Notes under the pieces: generated by a model
Database searches by the model: none
Told to the model about the DNA's origin: nothing
Seen by the model: only the letters and a program-made list of their open reading frames with translations
Shown: one piece after another, positions 10,858 through 60,977 of the stretch
How the letters are laid out: each line of letters starts with the position of its first letter
Numbering within the stretch: position 1 is the stretch's first letter
Made by a program: the position numbers and the translations under genes
Assembly (NCBI RefSeq): GCF_000009905.1
Contig: NC_006177.1
Span: forward strand, 2,542,001-2,606,000
Reading direction: 5' to 3'
Length of the DNA stretch: 64,000 nt
DNA from: Symbiobacterium thermophilum IAM 14863
GTDB taxonomy: Bacteria > Bacillota > Sulfobacillia > Symbiobacteriales > Symbiobacteriaceae

Positions 10858-10983
10858 GTTCGGGGCGAAACGTGCACTCCTCTGCGACCCCCGGGTGCAC
10901 ATTTCGCCTCGAACTCCCTGCTGACCACGCACGCAGCAGGCGGAATGTGCACCCCACCACAGACCACAGGTGCACATTCCGCC
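10858..10983. repeat. Two GTGCAC hairpins (same family as 30.3 kb array)
   Basis: Hairpin 1 pairs 10858-10877 with 10895-10914 (18 of 20 positions; arm GTTCGGGGCGAAACGTGCAC). Hairpin 2 pairs 10939-10953 with 10969-10983 perfectly (arm GGCGGAATGTGCACC). The two GTGCACATT arms are 75 bp apart. The same arm sequence recurs five times at 30315-30705. The truncated PLP gene stops just after hairpin 2. Confidence 0.85.
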
Positions 10984-11000
10984 TCGAACCGGGCCCGGGA

Positions 11001-26557: not shown

Positions 26558-27001
26558 GTGAGAGTCCGGCTATACCCCTGGTTCTGTCCGCCCGCCTTTC
26601 GGCGGGCGTGATGATCATTTATCTCACGGCCCGACCAGACCGTGGTCCCGGATTACTCCTGGGACTGCGTCCTACCCGCGCTCAAAGGCGCCTACTTGGA
26701 CTTGCACCGTGGCGGAGATTGCCCGTGCCACTCCCCCGTCGCCGGGGGACCTGCGTCTCTCTAGCTCGTTACAGGTACAAGCGACTCGCACCAGGCGAGA
26801 CCGCCTTCCCCATCGTCGGCTCGCGCCGCCAGAGCTTGCGCTCTGCGCCAACTTTCTTCCGGCTACGGGTCCTGATGCGTCTGCCTGGGGCAGACTCGGA
26901 CTTCACCGGAAGCGGTGCCAGGAAGTTCCTCACCGGGCCATCCGGGTCATGCGGCTTGCGCCTCCCCATCTGCCCGGCGCGATCATCCACCGAACTCTCA
27001 C
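26558..27001 (-). ncRNA. rnpB: RNase P RNA, bacterial class A
   Basis: Read on the minus strand, the 3' part has the universal CR V/P2 sequence GAGATAAATGATCATCAC, then a GC hairpin and GACAGAACC, the hallmark of RNase P RNA. P1 forms from GTGAGAGTTCGG (5' end, 27001) and CCGGACTCTCAC (3' end, 26558). P2 forms from GATGATC near 26985 and GATCATC near 26613. The 5' conserved region is GGTGAAGTCCGAGTC; CTCCGCCACGGTGCAAGTCC and GGGTAGGACGCAG match later conserved regions. About 444 nt. It is the ribozyme that matures tRNA 5' ends, and it is co-oriented with, and just downstream of, three tRNA genes. Confidence 0.93.
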
Positions 27002-27089: not shown

Positions 27090-27165
27090 TGGTGCGAGAG
27101 CCGAGATTCGAACTCGGGACCTCACGGTTATCAGCCGTGTGCTCTGCCGACTGAGCTACCCTCGC
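27090..27165 (-). tRNA. tRNA-Ile (GAT)
   Basis: A 76-nt cloverleaf with encoded CCA. Acceptor GCGAGGG pairs with CTCTCGC; anticodon loop CTGATAA gives GAT; T-loop TTCGAAT. Last tRNA before rnpB. Confidence 0.97.
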
Positions 27166-27205
27166 ACATTGCGGGCCGCTTCCGATATCGGAAGCGGCCA
27201 GAACA

Positions 27206-27281
27206 TGGAGCTGATGACCGGGCTCGAACCGGTGACCTCGTCCTTACCAAGGACGTGCTCTACCACCTGAGCTACATCAGC
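27206..27281 (-). tRNA. tRNA-Thr (GGT)
   Basis: A 76-nt cloverleaf with encoded CCA. Acceptor GCTGATG pairs with CATCAGC; anticodon stem GTCCT/AGGAC with loop containing GGT; T-loop TTCGAGC. Confidence 0.97.
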
Positions 27282-27287
27282 ACAACC

Positions 27288-27363
27288 TGGTGGACCGCGT
27301 AGGACTCGAACCTACAACCTGCCGATTAAGAGTCGGATGCTCTACCAATTGAGCTAGCGGTCC
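27288..27363 (-). tRNA. tRNA-Lys (CTT)
   Basis: A 76-nt cloverleaf with encoded CCA. Acceptor GGACCGC pairs with GCGGTCC; anticodon loop CTCTTAA gives CTT; T-loop TTCGAGT. First tRNA after the promoter. Confidence 0.96.
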
Positions 27364-29473: not shown

Positions 29474-29686
29474 CTATCGACGACGTTCGTTGGTGGGTCC
29501 CAGAGGCGCCGACGCCTCCACCCGGTGCTCCGCGGCGGCGATCAGCTCGCCGTCCGAGTCCAGGTGGTAGATGCGCACCGCGCCGCGGGCCGTGTTGAAC
29601 TCCACGCAGCAATCCCAGCAGTAGTATTGCTCCGCCCCGACACGGCCAATACTGCGGCTACCACAGTTCGGGCACCTCACGTCCAC
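29474..29686 (-). CDS. Small zinc-ribbon protein
   Basis: A 70-residue protein with CPNCGSRSIGRVGAEQYYCWDCC, a CxxC...CxxC zinc ribbon, followed by EFNTARGAVRIYHLDSDGEL. GTG 29686 overlaps the end of the PRC-barrel gene; GTG 29680, eight bases after an AAGGGGGG run, is an alternative. Zinc-ribbon proteins of this size often bind nucleic acid or act as adaptors. Part of the PRC - Zn ribbon - YtxH - AI-2E operon. Confidence 0.75.
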   Translation of the reverse strand: MDVRCPNCGSRSIGRVGAEQYYCWDCCVEFNTARGAVRIYHLDSDGELIAAAEHRVEASAPLGPTNERRR

Positions 29687-30198
29687 AGCCCCCCTTCGCG
29701 CTCCGCCACCGCGTCCAGCAGGATCGCCCCTTCGCCGGTGACCGCCGGCCCGTTCAGGGGCACGATCGCCTTGCCGCTCAGCAGATCGTCCACGAAGCCG
29801 CGCGAGAGTTGCAGAGCGTGGATCTCCCCCGTGCTGGGTTCGAAGTGCAGGTCGTCGAGCATGCCCAGCTCCTCGCCCGAGCCGTCCAGCACGGGCAGAC
29901 CGGTCAGGGCCGACCCGCACCGGGTCTCCGCCTCGTCCTCCAGGTACCGCTCCTCTGCCAGCACATACGTCGAACCCACTGCCTTGACACCCTGGTAGTC
30001 CAGTACCCGGCGGCGGCTGAGCAGTCCGCCGGTCTCCAGCACCAGCCCACGGATGCGCCGCCCGTCGCGGCTGATCAGCACCTCCTGTACCCGCCCCACC
30101 GGCCGCATGTCGGGACTTGCCAGCACCGACAGCCCGATCAGGTCCCTGGCCCTGGACACGTCTGCATCGATCCCCCGCTCGCGCAGATTCAGGATCAT
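29677..30198 (-). CDS. PRC-barrel domain protein (YrrD-like)
   Basis: A 173-residue protein with two PRC-barrel modules: ARDLIGLSVLASPDMRPVGR with VQEVLISRDGRRIRGLVLE, then SALTGLPVLDGSGEELGMLD with DLHFEPSTGEIHALQLSRGF. The PRC barrel is a small beta-barrel first described in RimM and photosynthetic reaction centres; the Bacillus YrrD protein has the same double module and gene position. ATG 30198 is used, though its ribosome site is weak (ACAGG). The gene sits directly after the 85-bp hairpin array. Confidence 0.85.
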   Translation of the reverse strand: MILNLRERGIDADVSRARDLIGLSVLASPDMRPVGRVQEVLISRDGRRIRGLVLETGGLLSRRRVLDYQGVKAVGSTYVLAEERYLEDEAETRCGSALTGLPVLDGSGEELGMLDDLHFEPSTGEIHALQLSRGFVDDLLSGKAIVPLNGPAVTGEGAILLDAVAEREGGLWT

Positions 30199-30314
30199 CC
30201 TGTTACGAATGCCAGTCTGCCCCGATCCGCCCAGGGATAAACCAGGAAGTTTGCCGGTAACGCCGGTCGTTGAGTTGCGTCCCACTCCGCTGCGCCACGG
30301 CGTCCCGTCCCCGG

Positions 30315-30705
30315 TTCGAGGCCAAATGTGCACCCCACCCCCGCCCACCCGTGCACATTCCGCATCGTCGCAGCGGCCCGACGCCACCCCGCCTCCCAGT
30401 TCGAGGCGAAATGTGCACCCCGCCCCCGCCCGCCGGTGCACATTCCGCCCCGTCACAGTGGCCCGACACCACCCCGCCTCCCAGTTCGAGGCGAAATGTG
30501 CACCCCGCCCCCGCCCGCCGGTGCACATTCCGCCCCGTCACAGCGGCTCGACGCCACCCCGTCCCCCCGGTTCGAGGCCAAATGTGCACCCCACCCCCGC
30601 CCACCCGTGCACATTCCGCCCCGTCACAGCGGCCCGACACCACCCCGCCTCCCAGTTCGAGGCGAACTGTGCACCCCGCCCCCGCCCGCCGGTGCACATT
30701 CCGCC
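30315..30705. repeat. 85-bp tandem hairpin array (five copies)
   Basis: Copies start at TTCGAG, positions 30315, 30400, 30485, 30571 and 30656 (85, 85, 86, 85 bp apart). Each has arms such as GGCGAAATGTGCACC and GGTGCACATTCCGCC around a C-rich 15-base loop; on the minus strand the loop is GGCGGGCGGGGGCGG, able to form a G-quadruplex. It fills the mnmA - PRC-barrel gap. Arm sequence is shared with 10858-10983. Frames inside it are repeat artefacts. Confidence 0.92.
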
Positions 30706-30862
30706 GCCACAGGCCGACTGTCCGGGCCCAGCTGCAGACCGACGGCGTTTCTGCCCCCAAACCCATCGCCGAGGCCAAGCCGTAACCACACAAACCACCG
30801 CCCCCGGACCCGCCCGAAGGCGGATCCGGGGGCGCTGCAGCACGAATCACCGGACTGTCTGC

Positions 30863-31960
30863 TCAGTTGATCGCACGCTCAATCGTCCCGCCGCCCAGCA
30901 CCCAGTCGCCGTCGTAGAAGACCACCGCCTGGCCGGGGGTGATCGCCCGCTGGGGCCGGTCGAACTCCACCCGCACCGCGTCCTCGCCGATGGGGTAGAT
31001 CGTGCACTCCGCCTCCGGCGCCATGCGCCGGATCTTCGCCCGGCAGCGCCGCGGGAACGTGAGCCCGGGGATGGCGATCCAGTTCAGGTCCGAGGCCACC
31101 AGCCCGCCCCGGTAGGTCTCCTCGTCCTCGCCCACGATCACCGCGTTGCGCTCCACGTCCAGGTCCACCACGTAGACCGGGCGTGGGGTCGTGAGGCCGA
31201 GCCCCTTGCGCTGACCGATGGTGTACAGGGGCAGCCCCTGGTGCTGCCCGATGACCTCGCCCCGGGTGTTCAGGATGGGGCCGGGGACGATGGCCTCGGG
31301 CGCCCGCTCCTTCAGGAACCGGCCGTAGTCGTTGTCGTAGACGAAGCAGATCTCCTGGGAGTCGGGCTTGTCGGCGGTGACGAACCCGTACTTGGCCGCC
31401 AGCGCCCTCACCTCGGACTTCTGCAGGTGTCCGACGGGGAAGAGCGTGTGGGCCAGAGCCTCCTGGGTCAGGTTGTGGAGCACGTAGGTCTGGTCCTTGC
31501 GGGCGTCCGCCGACTTGCCCAGGAGCCAGCGGCCCGGGAAGCGGTCGTCCTGCCCGATGACGGCGTAGTGGCCGGTGGCCACGTAGTCGCACTCCAGCTG
31601 CTTCGCCTTCTCGAGGAAGGCCGAGAACTTCACATACCGGTTGCAGGCGATGCACGGGTTGGGCGTACGGCCCCGGGTGTACTCCTCGATGAAGTAGTCG
31701 ATCACCGTGCGGGCGAACTGCCCCTGGAAGTTCATGACGTAGTACGGGATGCCCAGCTTGTGGGCGACGGAGCGGGCGTCCTCCACCGCTGCCAGGGAGC
31801 AGCAGCCCGAATGCTGGTTCATCTGGATCTCTTCCGGAATGTCGTCCGTCCAGGTGTTCATGGTGACGCCGATCACCTCGTAGCCCTGCTCCACCAGGAG
31901 CGCGGCCGCCACCGAGGAGTCGACGCCGCCGGACATCGCCATGAGGACGCGCTTGGCCAC
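30863..31960 (-). CDS. mnmA: tRNA-specific 2-thiouridylase
   Basis: A 365-residue enzyme: the PP-loop MSGGVDSSVAAALLVEQGYEV, the first catalytic cysteine in TPNPCIACNRYVKF, the second in PDSQEICFV, and the tRNA-binding TGHYA region. MnmA adenylates U34 of Lys, Glu and Gln tRNAs and inserts sulfur passed on from the cysteine desulfurase, whose gene lies directly upstream. GTG 31960 has AGGAAGGGGG upstream; longer readings lack a site. Essential or near-essential; cytoplasmic. Confidence 0.96.
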   Translation of the reverse strand: MAKRVLMAMSGGVDSSVAAALLVEQGYEVIGVTMNTWTDDIPEEIQMNQHSGCCSLAAVEDARSVAHKLGIPYYVMNFQGQFARTVIDYFIEEYTRGRTPNPCIACNRYVKFSAFLEKAKQLECDYVATGHYAVIGQDDRFPGRWLLGKSADARKDQTYVLHNLTQEALAHTLFPVGHLQKSEVRALAAKYGFVTADKPDSQEICFVYDNDYGRFLKERAPEAIVPGPILNTRGEVIGQHQGLPLYTIGQRKGLGLTTPRPVYVVDLDVERNAVIVGEDEETYRGGLVASDLNWIAIPGLTFPRRCRAKIRRMAPEAECTIYPIGEDAVRVEFDRPQRAITPGQAVVFYDGDWVLGGGTIERAIN

Positions 31961-32085
31961 GGGTCGCCCACCCCCTTCCTTCGTTACGTATAGTGTAGCC
32001 CGTCGGGTGCGACCGTAACGGCGCCCGGCAGGCACTTCTTACCGGCCTCGCGCCCGTCCCGGCCCCTGCTCACACGTGCGCCGGG

Positions 32086-33299: not shown

Positions 33300-33640
33300 C
33301 CCCGCAGACGGGCTTCGGAAGCCACACAACGGGACGTGCCCCCGCCGCTGCGCGTGGGCGGGCTGCAAGACCGGACCGGCACCCCAGCCGGCGCGCTCCG
33401 GCGGGCCATACGACGGGACCGGCAGCCCGGCCCCTGCGCTCGGACGCACGACCCGACCGGCACCCCCGCCACTGGGCCTGTACGGGCTTCACGACCCGAC
33501 CGGCCCCCCCGCCGCTGCGCCTGGCCAGGCTGCACGACCGGACCGGCGCCCCAGCCGGCGCGCTCCGGCGGGCCACACCACCGGACCCCGGCCCCCACCG
33601 GCGCCTGGGCGGGCCACACACGGAGCCGTACGGCGCCGCA
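33300..33640. repeat. 43-bp degenerate tandem array
   Basis: CCGGC anchors at 33376, 33419, 33457, 33500, 33543 and 33588 (spacing 43, 38, 43, 43, 45). Minus-strand units run roughly GGTCCGGTCGTGCAGCC, a G+C-rich centre and GGCTGGGGTGCC. It fills the Rrf2-iscS gap. The sequence differs from the other arrays, though GGTCGTG recalls the 34-bp array at 5.9 kb. Confidence 0.8.
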
Positions 33641-47363: not shown

Positions 47364-47589
47364 GTGGTCAGCATACCCCACCATGCCGTGTGCCCGGTAG
47401 AACAATGAACCTGCTCTCCACAGGTGGGTGCCCGCTCCGCTGCTTTCTGAGTCCCCTGACCACGGCCGTGCCGGGGGGGCGTTCAGGCCACATCGGAATA
47501 AAGGCTCCCTTTCTTGAATGTGTTAGGTCATTTCTTACCGGTGATCACGCACATGGTCGGGAGCGCCCTTAGCTTGTGTGCTCTCCCCG
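47330..47589 (-). ncRNA. Candidate structured small RNA of about 260 nt
   Basis: It lies between the Hsp20 terminator and trxA. A promoter (47596-47624) and an intrinsic terminator (47330-47363) bracket it on the minus strand, and no convincing reading frame is inside. Local hairpins are visible, such as ACCTG-tggagag-CAGGT and GCAT-n-GTATGC. It lacks the features of tmRNA, SRP RNA and RNase P RNA; a 6S-type RNA was considered, but the end-to-end pairing was not found. Unclassified. Confidence 0.5.
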
Positions 47590-49991: not shown

Positions 49992-50700
49992 ACAGCCCGG
50001 GGACCGGAAGGCGCCGGGCTGTCGTTCAGACGTGAAGTGGCAGAAATCCGCAGAGTGCTGCGCTGGAGGCTGCGGGAAAAGTGACACTTCACGTGTCAAG
50101 TGTCCCGGGCTCAGCCGGCATCCGGGGTCCGGGGAAGGCACCGGGCGGTCGTTCACACGTAAAGTGGCAGAAAATCCGCAGGGCGCTGCGCTGGAGGCTG
50201 CAGAAAAGTGACACTTCACGTGTCAACTGTCCCGGGTTCAGCTGGCAACCGGGGACCGGGGAACGCACCGGGCGGTCGTTCAGACGTGAAGTGGCAAAAA
50301 ATCCGCAGGGCACTGCGCTGAAGGCTGCGGAAAAGTGACACTTCACATGTCAAGTATCCCGGCTTCAGCCGGCATCCGGGGTCCGGGGAAGGCACCGGGC
50401 GGTCGTTCAGACGTGAAGTGGCAAAAAATCCGCAGGGCACTGCGCTGAAGGCTACGGAAAAATGACACTTCACGTGTCAACTGTCCCGCGTTCAGCTGGC
50501 ATCCGGGGACCGGGGAAGGCACCGGGCGGTCGTTCAGACGTGAAGTGGCAAGAATCCGCAGGGCGCTGCGCTGGAGGCTGCGGAAAAGTGACACTTCACG
50601 TGTCAAGTATCCCGGGTTCAGCTGGCATCCGGGGACCGGAGAAGGCACCGGGCGGTCGTTCAGACGTGAAGTGGCAAGAATTCAGCTGGCATCCAGGACC
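49992..50700. repeat. 127-bp tandem array (six copies)
   Basis: GTTCAGACGTGAAGTGGCA-type anchors at 50024, 50151, 50278, 50405, 50532 and 50658 (127, 127, 127, 127, 126 bp apart). In each unit ACGTGAAGTGGCA is the near-perfect reverse complement of TGACACTTCACGT about 45 bases on. The array sits between the convergent ends of the DUF4269-HIT and VOC genes. Open frames inside it (repeating KCHFS and CGFFATSRLNDRP) are repeat artefacts, since 127 is not a multiple of 3. Confidence 0.95.
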
Positions 50701-52745: not shown

Positions 52746-52833
52746 CGGCCGGTCCTCCTCGGTCATGCTGCGGGCGCCCCGCGATCTGAGTCATGCACAG
52801 CAATAGCTTACCATAAATTGTGGCCCCGCCTGG

Positions 52834-53098
52834 GATGGCCACGCCCCGAAGCATCCGGTCTGTTCGCTCTCGCTGTGGGTCCCCCGCGGCAGGCAACTCT
52901 TCCCTGCGGCTTCCGGTCTGTTCATGCTCGGTGTGGGCAGCCCCGGCCGGGATGGTCACGCCCCGAAGCATTCGGTCTGTTCGCTCTCGCTGTGGGTCCC
53001 CCGCGGCAGGCAACTCTTCCCTGCGGCTTCCGGTCTGTTCGTGCTCCGTGTGGCCAGCCCCGCCTGGGATGGCCACGCCCCGAAGCACCCGGTCTGTA
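52834..53098. repeat. 117-bp tandem array upstream of glycosyltransferase copy 1
   Basis: GATGGCCACGCCCCGAAGCA recurs at 52834, 52951 (one change) and 53068, spacing exactly 117 bp (two full units and a partial). Each unit has two halves beginning CGGTCTGTTC. As 117 is a multiple of 3 the minus strand gives an open frame with a 39-residue repeat, but no independent sign of coding. A decayed similar stretch lies at 56195-56255 before glycosyltransferase copy 2, and CAATAGCTTACCATAA follows both. Confidence 0.88.
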
Positions 53099-53171
53099 AG
53101 CCGTCACTGTTGGCTGCGCAAGCCGGTGCCCCCATCGCTGTGCCGCCCCGAGAGGTACGCCTCCTCGTTTA

Positions 53172-53330
53172 CACCAACACGCAGTGCGAACAGAGCAGAT
53201 ACCACCCGGAGAGGTATCCGCCGGCGCCCTCACCAACACGCAGTGCGAACAGAGCAGATACCGCTCGGAGAGGTATCCTCCGGCGCCCTCACCAACACGC
53301 AATGCGAAGAGAGCGGATGCCGCCCCGGGG
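53172..53330. repeat. 59-bp tandem array
   Basis: CACCAACACGCAGTGCGAA anchors at 53172, 53231 and 53290 (59 bp apart). GCAGATACC and GGTATCCGC in each unit form a short stem. Adjacent to the 117-bp array; together they occupy the whole gap before the second VOC gene. Confidence 0.85.
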
Positions 53331-58611: not shown

Positions 58612-58667
58612 GTAGAACATGCGCCTCTTCCGTAATGACCTCCCTCTCACTCCGCCCTACGTCTTCC

Positions 58668-58793
58668 CCCTGCCTTCCCCCTGCCTTCCCCCTGCCTTCC
58701 CTCTGCCTTCCCTCTGCCTTCCCTCTGCCTTCCCTCTGCCTTCCCTCTGCCTTCCCTCTGCCTTCCCTCTGTCCTCCCTCTGTCCTCCCTCTG
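58668..58793. repeat. 11-bp pyrimidine-rich minisatellite
   Basis: About eleven copies of CCTTCCCTCTG (early copies CCTTCCCCCTG, last ones CCTCCCTCTGT). The plus strand is C/T apart from one G per unit, so the complement is a purine strand CAGAGGGAAGG. Located between katG and the LD-carboxypeptidase gene. Confidence 0.95.
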
Positions 58794-58854
58794 CTCTCTT
58801 GCTACCGCCCGTATCGGTGAAGTGGTCGAGACGTCCTTGCCTGAGCGCGTCAAA

Positions 58855-60262: not shown

Positions 60263-60905
60263 CAGCCACGACGAACTTTCACTTCGACAACCAGCCAAGT
60301 GAAAATCCGTCGCACTTCGCGCCCCCAGGCGTCCCCTTCATACCTGAAGTAACCCGCTCAGCACGGCACCGGCGATCCACCCACGGCGAACTTCCACTTC
60401 GCCCACCAGCCAAGTGAAAATTCGTCGTACCTCGCGCCCTCAGCCGGCTACTTCGTACCTGAAGTAACCCGCTCGGAACGGCAACGGCCACCCAACTACG
60501 ACGGACTTTCACTTCGGTCTCCAGCCAAGTGAAAATCCGTCGCATTTCGCGCCCCCAGGCGGCCCCTTCATACCTGAAGTAACCCGCTTAGAACGGCGAC
60601 GGCGATCCACCCACGGCGAACTTCCACTTCGCCCACCAGGCAAGTGAAAATCCGTCGCATTTCGCGCCCCCAGGCGGCCCCTTCATACCTGAAGTAACCC
60701 GCTTAGAACGGCGACGGCTACCTAGCTACGCTGAACTTTCACTTCGCTCACCAGCCAAGTGAAAATCCGTCGTACCTCACGCCCTCAGCCGGCTACTTCA
60801 TACCTGAAGTAACCCGCTCAGAACGGCGACAGCTACCCAGCTATGGCGAACTTTCACTTCGACCACCAGCCAAGTGAAAATCCGTCGTACCTCGCGCCCT
60901 CAGCC
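60263..60905. repeat. 115-bp tandem array (six copies)
   Basis: CAAGTGAAAA anchors at 60296, 60411, 60526, 60641, 60756 and 60871: a perfectly constant 115-bp period. Each unit has CGACGGACTTTCACTT (with variants) facing AAGTGAAAATCCGTCG over a 14-base loop, and a second mini-stem ACTTCA-TACC-TGAAGT. Between the LD-carboxypeptidase gene start and the 3' end of a GNAT gene. The stretch 59997-60262 holds no gene. Confidence 0.96.
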
Positions 60906-60977
60906 GGGTCCTCCACGCCTGAAACAACCCCCTGAGAGCGGCAGCCGCCCCCCAGATGCGTCGGCTCGGCCCCCTCC

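Follow-up and report, generated by a model that had tools for sequence, protein, structure and literature searches.

What is a row of five nearly identical inverted repeats doing in the gap between mnmA and a PRC-barrel gene, and what has carried copies of it elsewhere? The row lies in a window of 64,000 nucleotides, positions 2542001-2606000 of a single 3,566,135-bp contig (this genome is labelled G000 below; G003 and G004 are sister species). A first-pass annotation of the window had described a hairpin array with a G-quadruplex-capable loop, and had proposed that the element can move or be copied. Our best reading is that it is one of the dispersed, non-coding target arrays of a predicted HTH-nuclease system.

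The array between mnmA and the PRC-barrel gene

The five units, which we call family A, were recovered at 30314-30711 with unit-to-unit spacings of 85, 85, 86 and 85 bp (TRF score 650), and they sit, as had been said of them, between mnmA and the PRC-barrel gene, both on the minus strand. The same arms had been reported near 10.9 kb, and two units were found there. The features of the two loci are as follows.

30314-30370, 30399-30455, 30484-30540, 30570-30626 and 30655-30711, minus strand: family A array, five 57-bp units
30863..32035, minus strand: mnmA, upstream neighbour of the array
30799..30834, minus strand: terminator-like hairpin of mnmA, separating mnmA from the array
29677..30201, minus strand: PRC-barrel gene, downstream neighbour of the array
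10858-10914 and 10933-10989, plus strand: a further family A array of two units, spaced by 75 bp, with arms as in the 30.3-kb array

The arm sequences of the 15-bp stem are those originally quoted, but their complementarity is not perfect: GGCGA stands against CCGCC, which makes an A-C mismatch on the plus strand and a G-U pair on the minus strand, and unit 5, in which ACTGTGCAC is found, is a variant. The minus-strand loop reads CGGCGGGCGGGGGCGGG in units 2, 3 and 5 and GGGTGGGCGGGGGTGGG in units 1 and 4. A 9-mer from the arm is enriched in the window, with 16 matches against a mean of 6.3 and a maximum of 13 in 100 shuffles. Single strands of the units fold with z scores of -4.1 to -6.2, the value of -6.2 belonging to one minus-strand unit.

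Family A across the genome

Units of family A were collected by pattern searches followed by a scan of the fetched loci. They number 71 at 15 loci, of which 13 hold arrays of 2-12 units and two hold one unit each, so that the idea of a dispersed or copied element holds for many more places than the two first seen. Each unit is 57 bp long and consists of two inverted half-sites of about 20 bp, GTTCGAGGCGRAATGTGCAC, flanking exactly 17 bp. When the spacing was left free, the 17-bp loop was still found in 67 of 68 paired core half-sites, and 26 of the 94 core matches had no partner. The spacings within arrays fall at 74-75, 84-87, 106-107 (with one of 140), 116-118, 127 and 171-172 bp. The sequence of the loop differs from locus to locus, and the G-quadruplex potential is therefore only local; a two-tetrad structure is possible in 19 of the 71 loops and a three-tetrad structure in 2, and a G-quadruplex as the function of the element is not upheld by these counts.

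All 15 loci are intergenic. By hand classification, eight of the gaps are unidirectional, seven are convergent and none is divergent, an outcome with a chance of 0.035 if one fifth of gaps is assumed to be divergent. The genes that flank the 15 loci, some of them frames without a family match, showed no common function. Arms with up to three mismatches occur 72 times in the genome, every time inside the 15 loci; no insertion sequence thus shares the arms, and the possibility that they are the ends of an insertion sequence or MITE was set aside. At the 1494-kb array, a gene for a group II intron reverse transcriptase/maturase (L033 1387-3009) ends just before the repeats. Beyond the amidase-like gene adjoining another family A array there is a 96-bp tandem array (L027 3918-4380, GTCGGCGACAATCC...), possibly a further array family.

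We considered and rejected the idea that family A is widespread beyond the genus. An exact scan of a contig collection, from which near-identical genomes may have been omitted, returned 16 stretches; two are contigs of G003, 13 of the other 14 look like chance single matches, and the last (L074 4369-4413, from Homoserinibacter, an actinobacterium) holds one compact, larger and different palindrome with related ATGTGCACAT arms, which is probably unrelated. Viral contigs gave no family A match.

The arrays also show a helical regularity. At 10.67 bp per turn, the 13 family A arrays have periods that correspond to whole helical turns, and 0 of 20,000 simulations did as well. Reduced to six distinct period classes, the test gives P = 6e-4; both of these tests took the mean of the 1249-kb array without its 140-bp jump, and the inclusion of that jump together with a 138-bp spacing from G003 gives P = 2e-4. 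The test was picked after the data had been seen, and the regularity fails in two other array families described below, family B (115 bp is 10.8 turns) and family D; for these reasons the phasing is counted as supporting evidence only.

A candidate protein partner

One family A array, at 1206 kb on the same chromosome, lies directly upstream of a gene (1204844-1205833, locus L027) whose product has two winged helices and a C-terminal domain resembling homing endonucleases. Both the upstream array and the synteny are kept in G003 (L069), with about 100 bp between array and gene in either genome. There are seven relatives of this HTH-nuclease in G000, seven in G003, six in G004, 11 in G001 and four in G002, and across the phylum 30 of the 398 genomes sampled gave a match, with at most five candidates scored per genome.

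All 22 aligned proteins match PHROG 9084 (phrog_9084), annotated as 'homing endonuclease', at best with 9e-14, and the C-terminal domain alone gave 3.6e-14 in one of three proteins tried. The residues D217, E227, H233, D253 and K256 are invariant in 22 of 22 and are putative catalytic residues. Pfam recognised the HTH part only, together with a weak match to DUF2726, and a comparison of the nuclease domain with PDB sequences gave no match. A single-sequence structure prediction for the family A protein of G003 had a pLDDT of 34.9, an unusable model.

An array in front of the gene is common among the relatives in the genus. In 13 of the 20 genus copies TRF detects an array ahead of the start, at a distance of about 100-430 bp, and the sequences differ between paralogues; paralogous genes mostly have their own, different arrays upstream. 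Measured by repeat coverage in all 20 genus copies plus 4 of the 15 from G001 and G002, the upstream flank is repeat-rich in 18 of 24 cases and the downstream flank in 5 of 23 (Fisher P = 4e-4), the background being 10 of 71 window tiles. In other Bacillota, sampled at one locus per genome for 26 of the loci returned, the corresponding figures are 7 of 25 and 2 of 26 (P = 0.075). Four of the 20 genus copies (L134, L137, L142 and L147) have no repeats within 900 bp upstream; L137, the family B gene of G000, has its array at a distance of 1.4 kb. The orthologues of G000 and G003 have their array families in common, family A at L027/L069, family B at L137/L138 and family E at L135/L140. The gene tree places no protein of G004 in the clade of the A genes or in that of the B genes, which matches the lack of those arrays in G004, and across the three species the presence of families A and B tracks the presence of their genes. 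In the literature that was searched, neither these arrays nor the pairing of gene and array turned up.

Other array families and the sister species

Three more array families are present in the window.

60266..60942: family B, an array with a period of 115 bp, the half-site CCAAGTGAAAATCCGTCGCA and an internal offset of 28 bp, same architecture as family A
49997..50677: family C, an array with a period of 127 bp
52823..53325: family D, arrays with periods of 117 and 59 bp and the core TCTGTTCGC-N6-TGTKGRTG

In family B the internal offset of the half-site pairs is 28 bp in 52 of 60 and 30 bp in 6 of 60. The counts in G000, G003 and G004, in that order, are 102, 19 and 6 half-sites for family A (the last close to a control count of 2 in G004), 48, 57 and 0 half-site matches for family B, counts of 5, 0 and 20 for family C, and 12, 53 and 97 for family D. 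The mnmA locus itself is occupied by family A in G000 and by family D arrays in G003 and G004. An array resembling family C stands upstream of an HTH-nuclease gene in G004 (L146); the family C array of G000 has no adjoining HTH-nuclease gene, and none was found linked to family D.

Site dialects and exchange between species

Family A has a site dialect, and it is species-wide. In G000, with an array at 700 kb set aside, 132 of 136 half-sites have G at position 10; in G003, 22 of 22 half-sites have A there. The 700-kb array of G000 carries the G003 dialect, with A in 6 of 6. This locus is common to both genomes and has three units in G000 and four in G003; copy number, a comparison proposed in the first-pass annotation, thus does vary. 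The flank of the 700-kb array is about 80-93% identical between the two species in most windows, some windows being lower or without a match, and from the very edge of the array there extends a tract of about 3.4 kb at 99.75-100% identity, the single such tract seen. This stretch has the appearance of a recent transfer or conversion, with the array marking one of its ends.

Proposed mechanism

We consider it probable that the family A arrays are cognate targets of HTH-nuclease dimers and have spread with the help of the nuclease, in a way that resembles the RAYT-REP systems with an unrelated enzyme. The 57-bp unit would be a bipartite target bound by a dimer of the two-winged-helix protein, and where an array precedes the gene, binding there could make the protein an autoregulator of its own promoter. 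Both the spread of units and their exchange between strains might come about because the nuclease breaks or nicks its target DNA and repair then copies array DNA into other intergenic gaps or from one strain to another. Selection for protein binding may keep the dispersed arrays homogeneous and, in family A, helically in register. The main difficulty is that the chromosome which encodes the nuclease also carries 71 uncut targets, and these would make the enzyme harmful unless it is repressed, inactive or acting otherwise; the cell may tolerate its targets in that the enzyme is repressed, only nicks, or has lost its activity.

A bolder version is conceivable, and we put it forward tentatively. 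The nuclease gene and the array in front of it would form a self-spreading system that seeds arrays by cutting and repair, exists as several gene-array lineages with species dialects, and turns its arrays into hot spots of interspecies conversion; if true, this would be a new class of genetic system. Short of that, the unexplained intergenic tandem repeats gain a candidate partner, a protein whose gene lies next to them, and several independent gene-array pairs occur within one genus. From these pairs comes a model, open to direct test, of the origin and spread of dispersed arrays and of their co-evolution with a DNA-binding nuclease, which runs alongside RAYT-REP and is independent of it.

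Alternative explanations

The arrays could instead be regulatory or chromosome-organising sites of the winged-helix protein, spread by duplication and recombination, with the nuclease inactive or incidental. An invariant 17-bp spacing, the helical register of family A, an array placed upstream of the gene as for an autoregulator, and the coexistence of the gene with 71 sites are what one would expect of such sites. It would be hard to see, however, why the putative catalytic residues should be invariant in all 22 proteins, and the neighbouring genes have no function in common, nor does any of the 15 loci lie in a divergent promoter gap; on balance we regard this account as rather unlikely. If the units were non-autonomous transposons of the REP/BIME type, mobilised by a Y1 (RAYT) transposase, their habitat would be the right one, as PMC2817692 and PMC3733652 describe REP/BIME as extragenic, occurring in tandem with flanking DNA, and situated in unidirectional or convergent gaps. 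The transposase domain Y1_Tnp (PF01797), however, was found in 0 of 3 genus genomes with positive controls, which rules out mobilisation by Y1 in these three; the foot of the stem lacks the GTAG/CGTC tag, the half-site starting with GTTCGAGG (142 half-sites), and the family A loop is long and of fixed length. We consider this origin highly improbable.

The emphasis on RNA hairpins in the first-pass annotation is not favoured by the pattern of change in the units, whose loop is fixed in length and free in sequence. Transcribed hairpins or G-quadruplexes that act on mRNA ends or in attenuation would agree with the good folding of single strands, with loci at the 3' ends of genes and with a slight excess of pairing within the 14-bp core (184 against 176.5 in shuffles, a value reached in 33 of 5000). 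Over all 20 positions the left and right arms nevertheless pair no better than when shuffled (232 of 300 against 231.8), A-A and C-C/G-G mismatches recur, with positions 13 and 20 affected in separate family A arrays, only 19 of the 71 loops could form a G-quadruplex, and the mnmA terminator precedes the array, all of which makes an RNA element quite improbable. Neutral minisatellite expansion, which needs no trans-acting partner, would explain that copy number varies and that units are homogenised within loci; it hardly accounts for the same half-sites at 15 unlinked loci with different spacers, for the association of arrays with the upstream regions of genes or for the species dialect of family A, and we find it scarcely credible.

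Comparison with known systems

The reading of the arrays as nuclease targets can be set beside three kinds of known systems. Iteron arrays are tandem binding sites upstream of the genes of autoregulated initiator or partition proteins, and the arrays described here are likewise tandem predicted sites upstream of the gene for a candidate binding protein; they differ in that a single family has arrays at many places in the chromosome and the protein carries a nuclease-like domain. With REP/BIME and RAYT (TnpA-REP) they have in common that short, species-specific palindromes are dispersed through extragenic DNA as tandem clusters and go together with a protein family encoded next to them. Unlike those systems, family A has no Y1 transposase or GTAG/CGTC tag, its unit is a 57-bp bipartite one with a fixed 17-bp loop, and the candidate partner combines winged helices with a domain resembling homing endonucleases, the array lying upstream of its gene.

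A relation of the HTH-nuclease to the EDxHD homing endonucleases is a candidate one. A review (PMC3943268) describes the EDxHD enzyme I-Bth0305I as forming a dimer on nearly 60 bp of target DNA, a length close to the 57-bp unit, and the homing-endonuclease-like domain here has invariant D, E, H and D residues. EDxHD enzymes differ from the proteins of this study, which are encoded by free-standing chromosomal genes, have two winged helices and are accompanied by many predicted targets in tandem arrays; neither an intron nor an intein was seen with the HTH-nuclease genes.

Other features of the window

Two further repeats occur in the window: an 11-bp tandem repeat, CTTCCCTCTGC, in 12 copies at 58663-58794, and an imperfect, G+C-rich 43-bp tandem repeat in about seven copies at 33321-33619. 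The Rfam matches are RNase P class B RNA (26568-26994), 6S RNA (47371-47565) and three tRNA genes (27093-27363).
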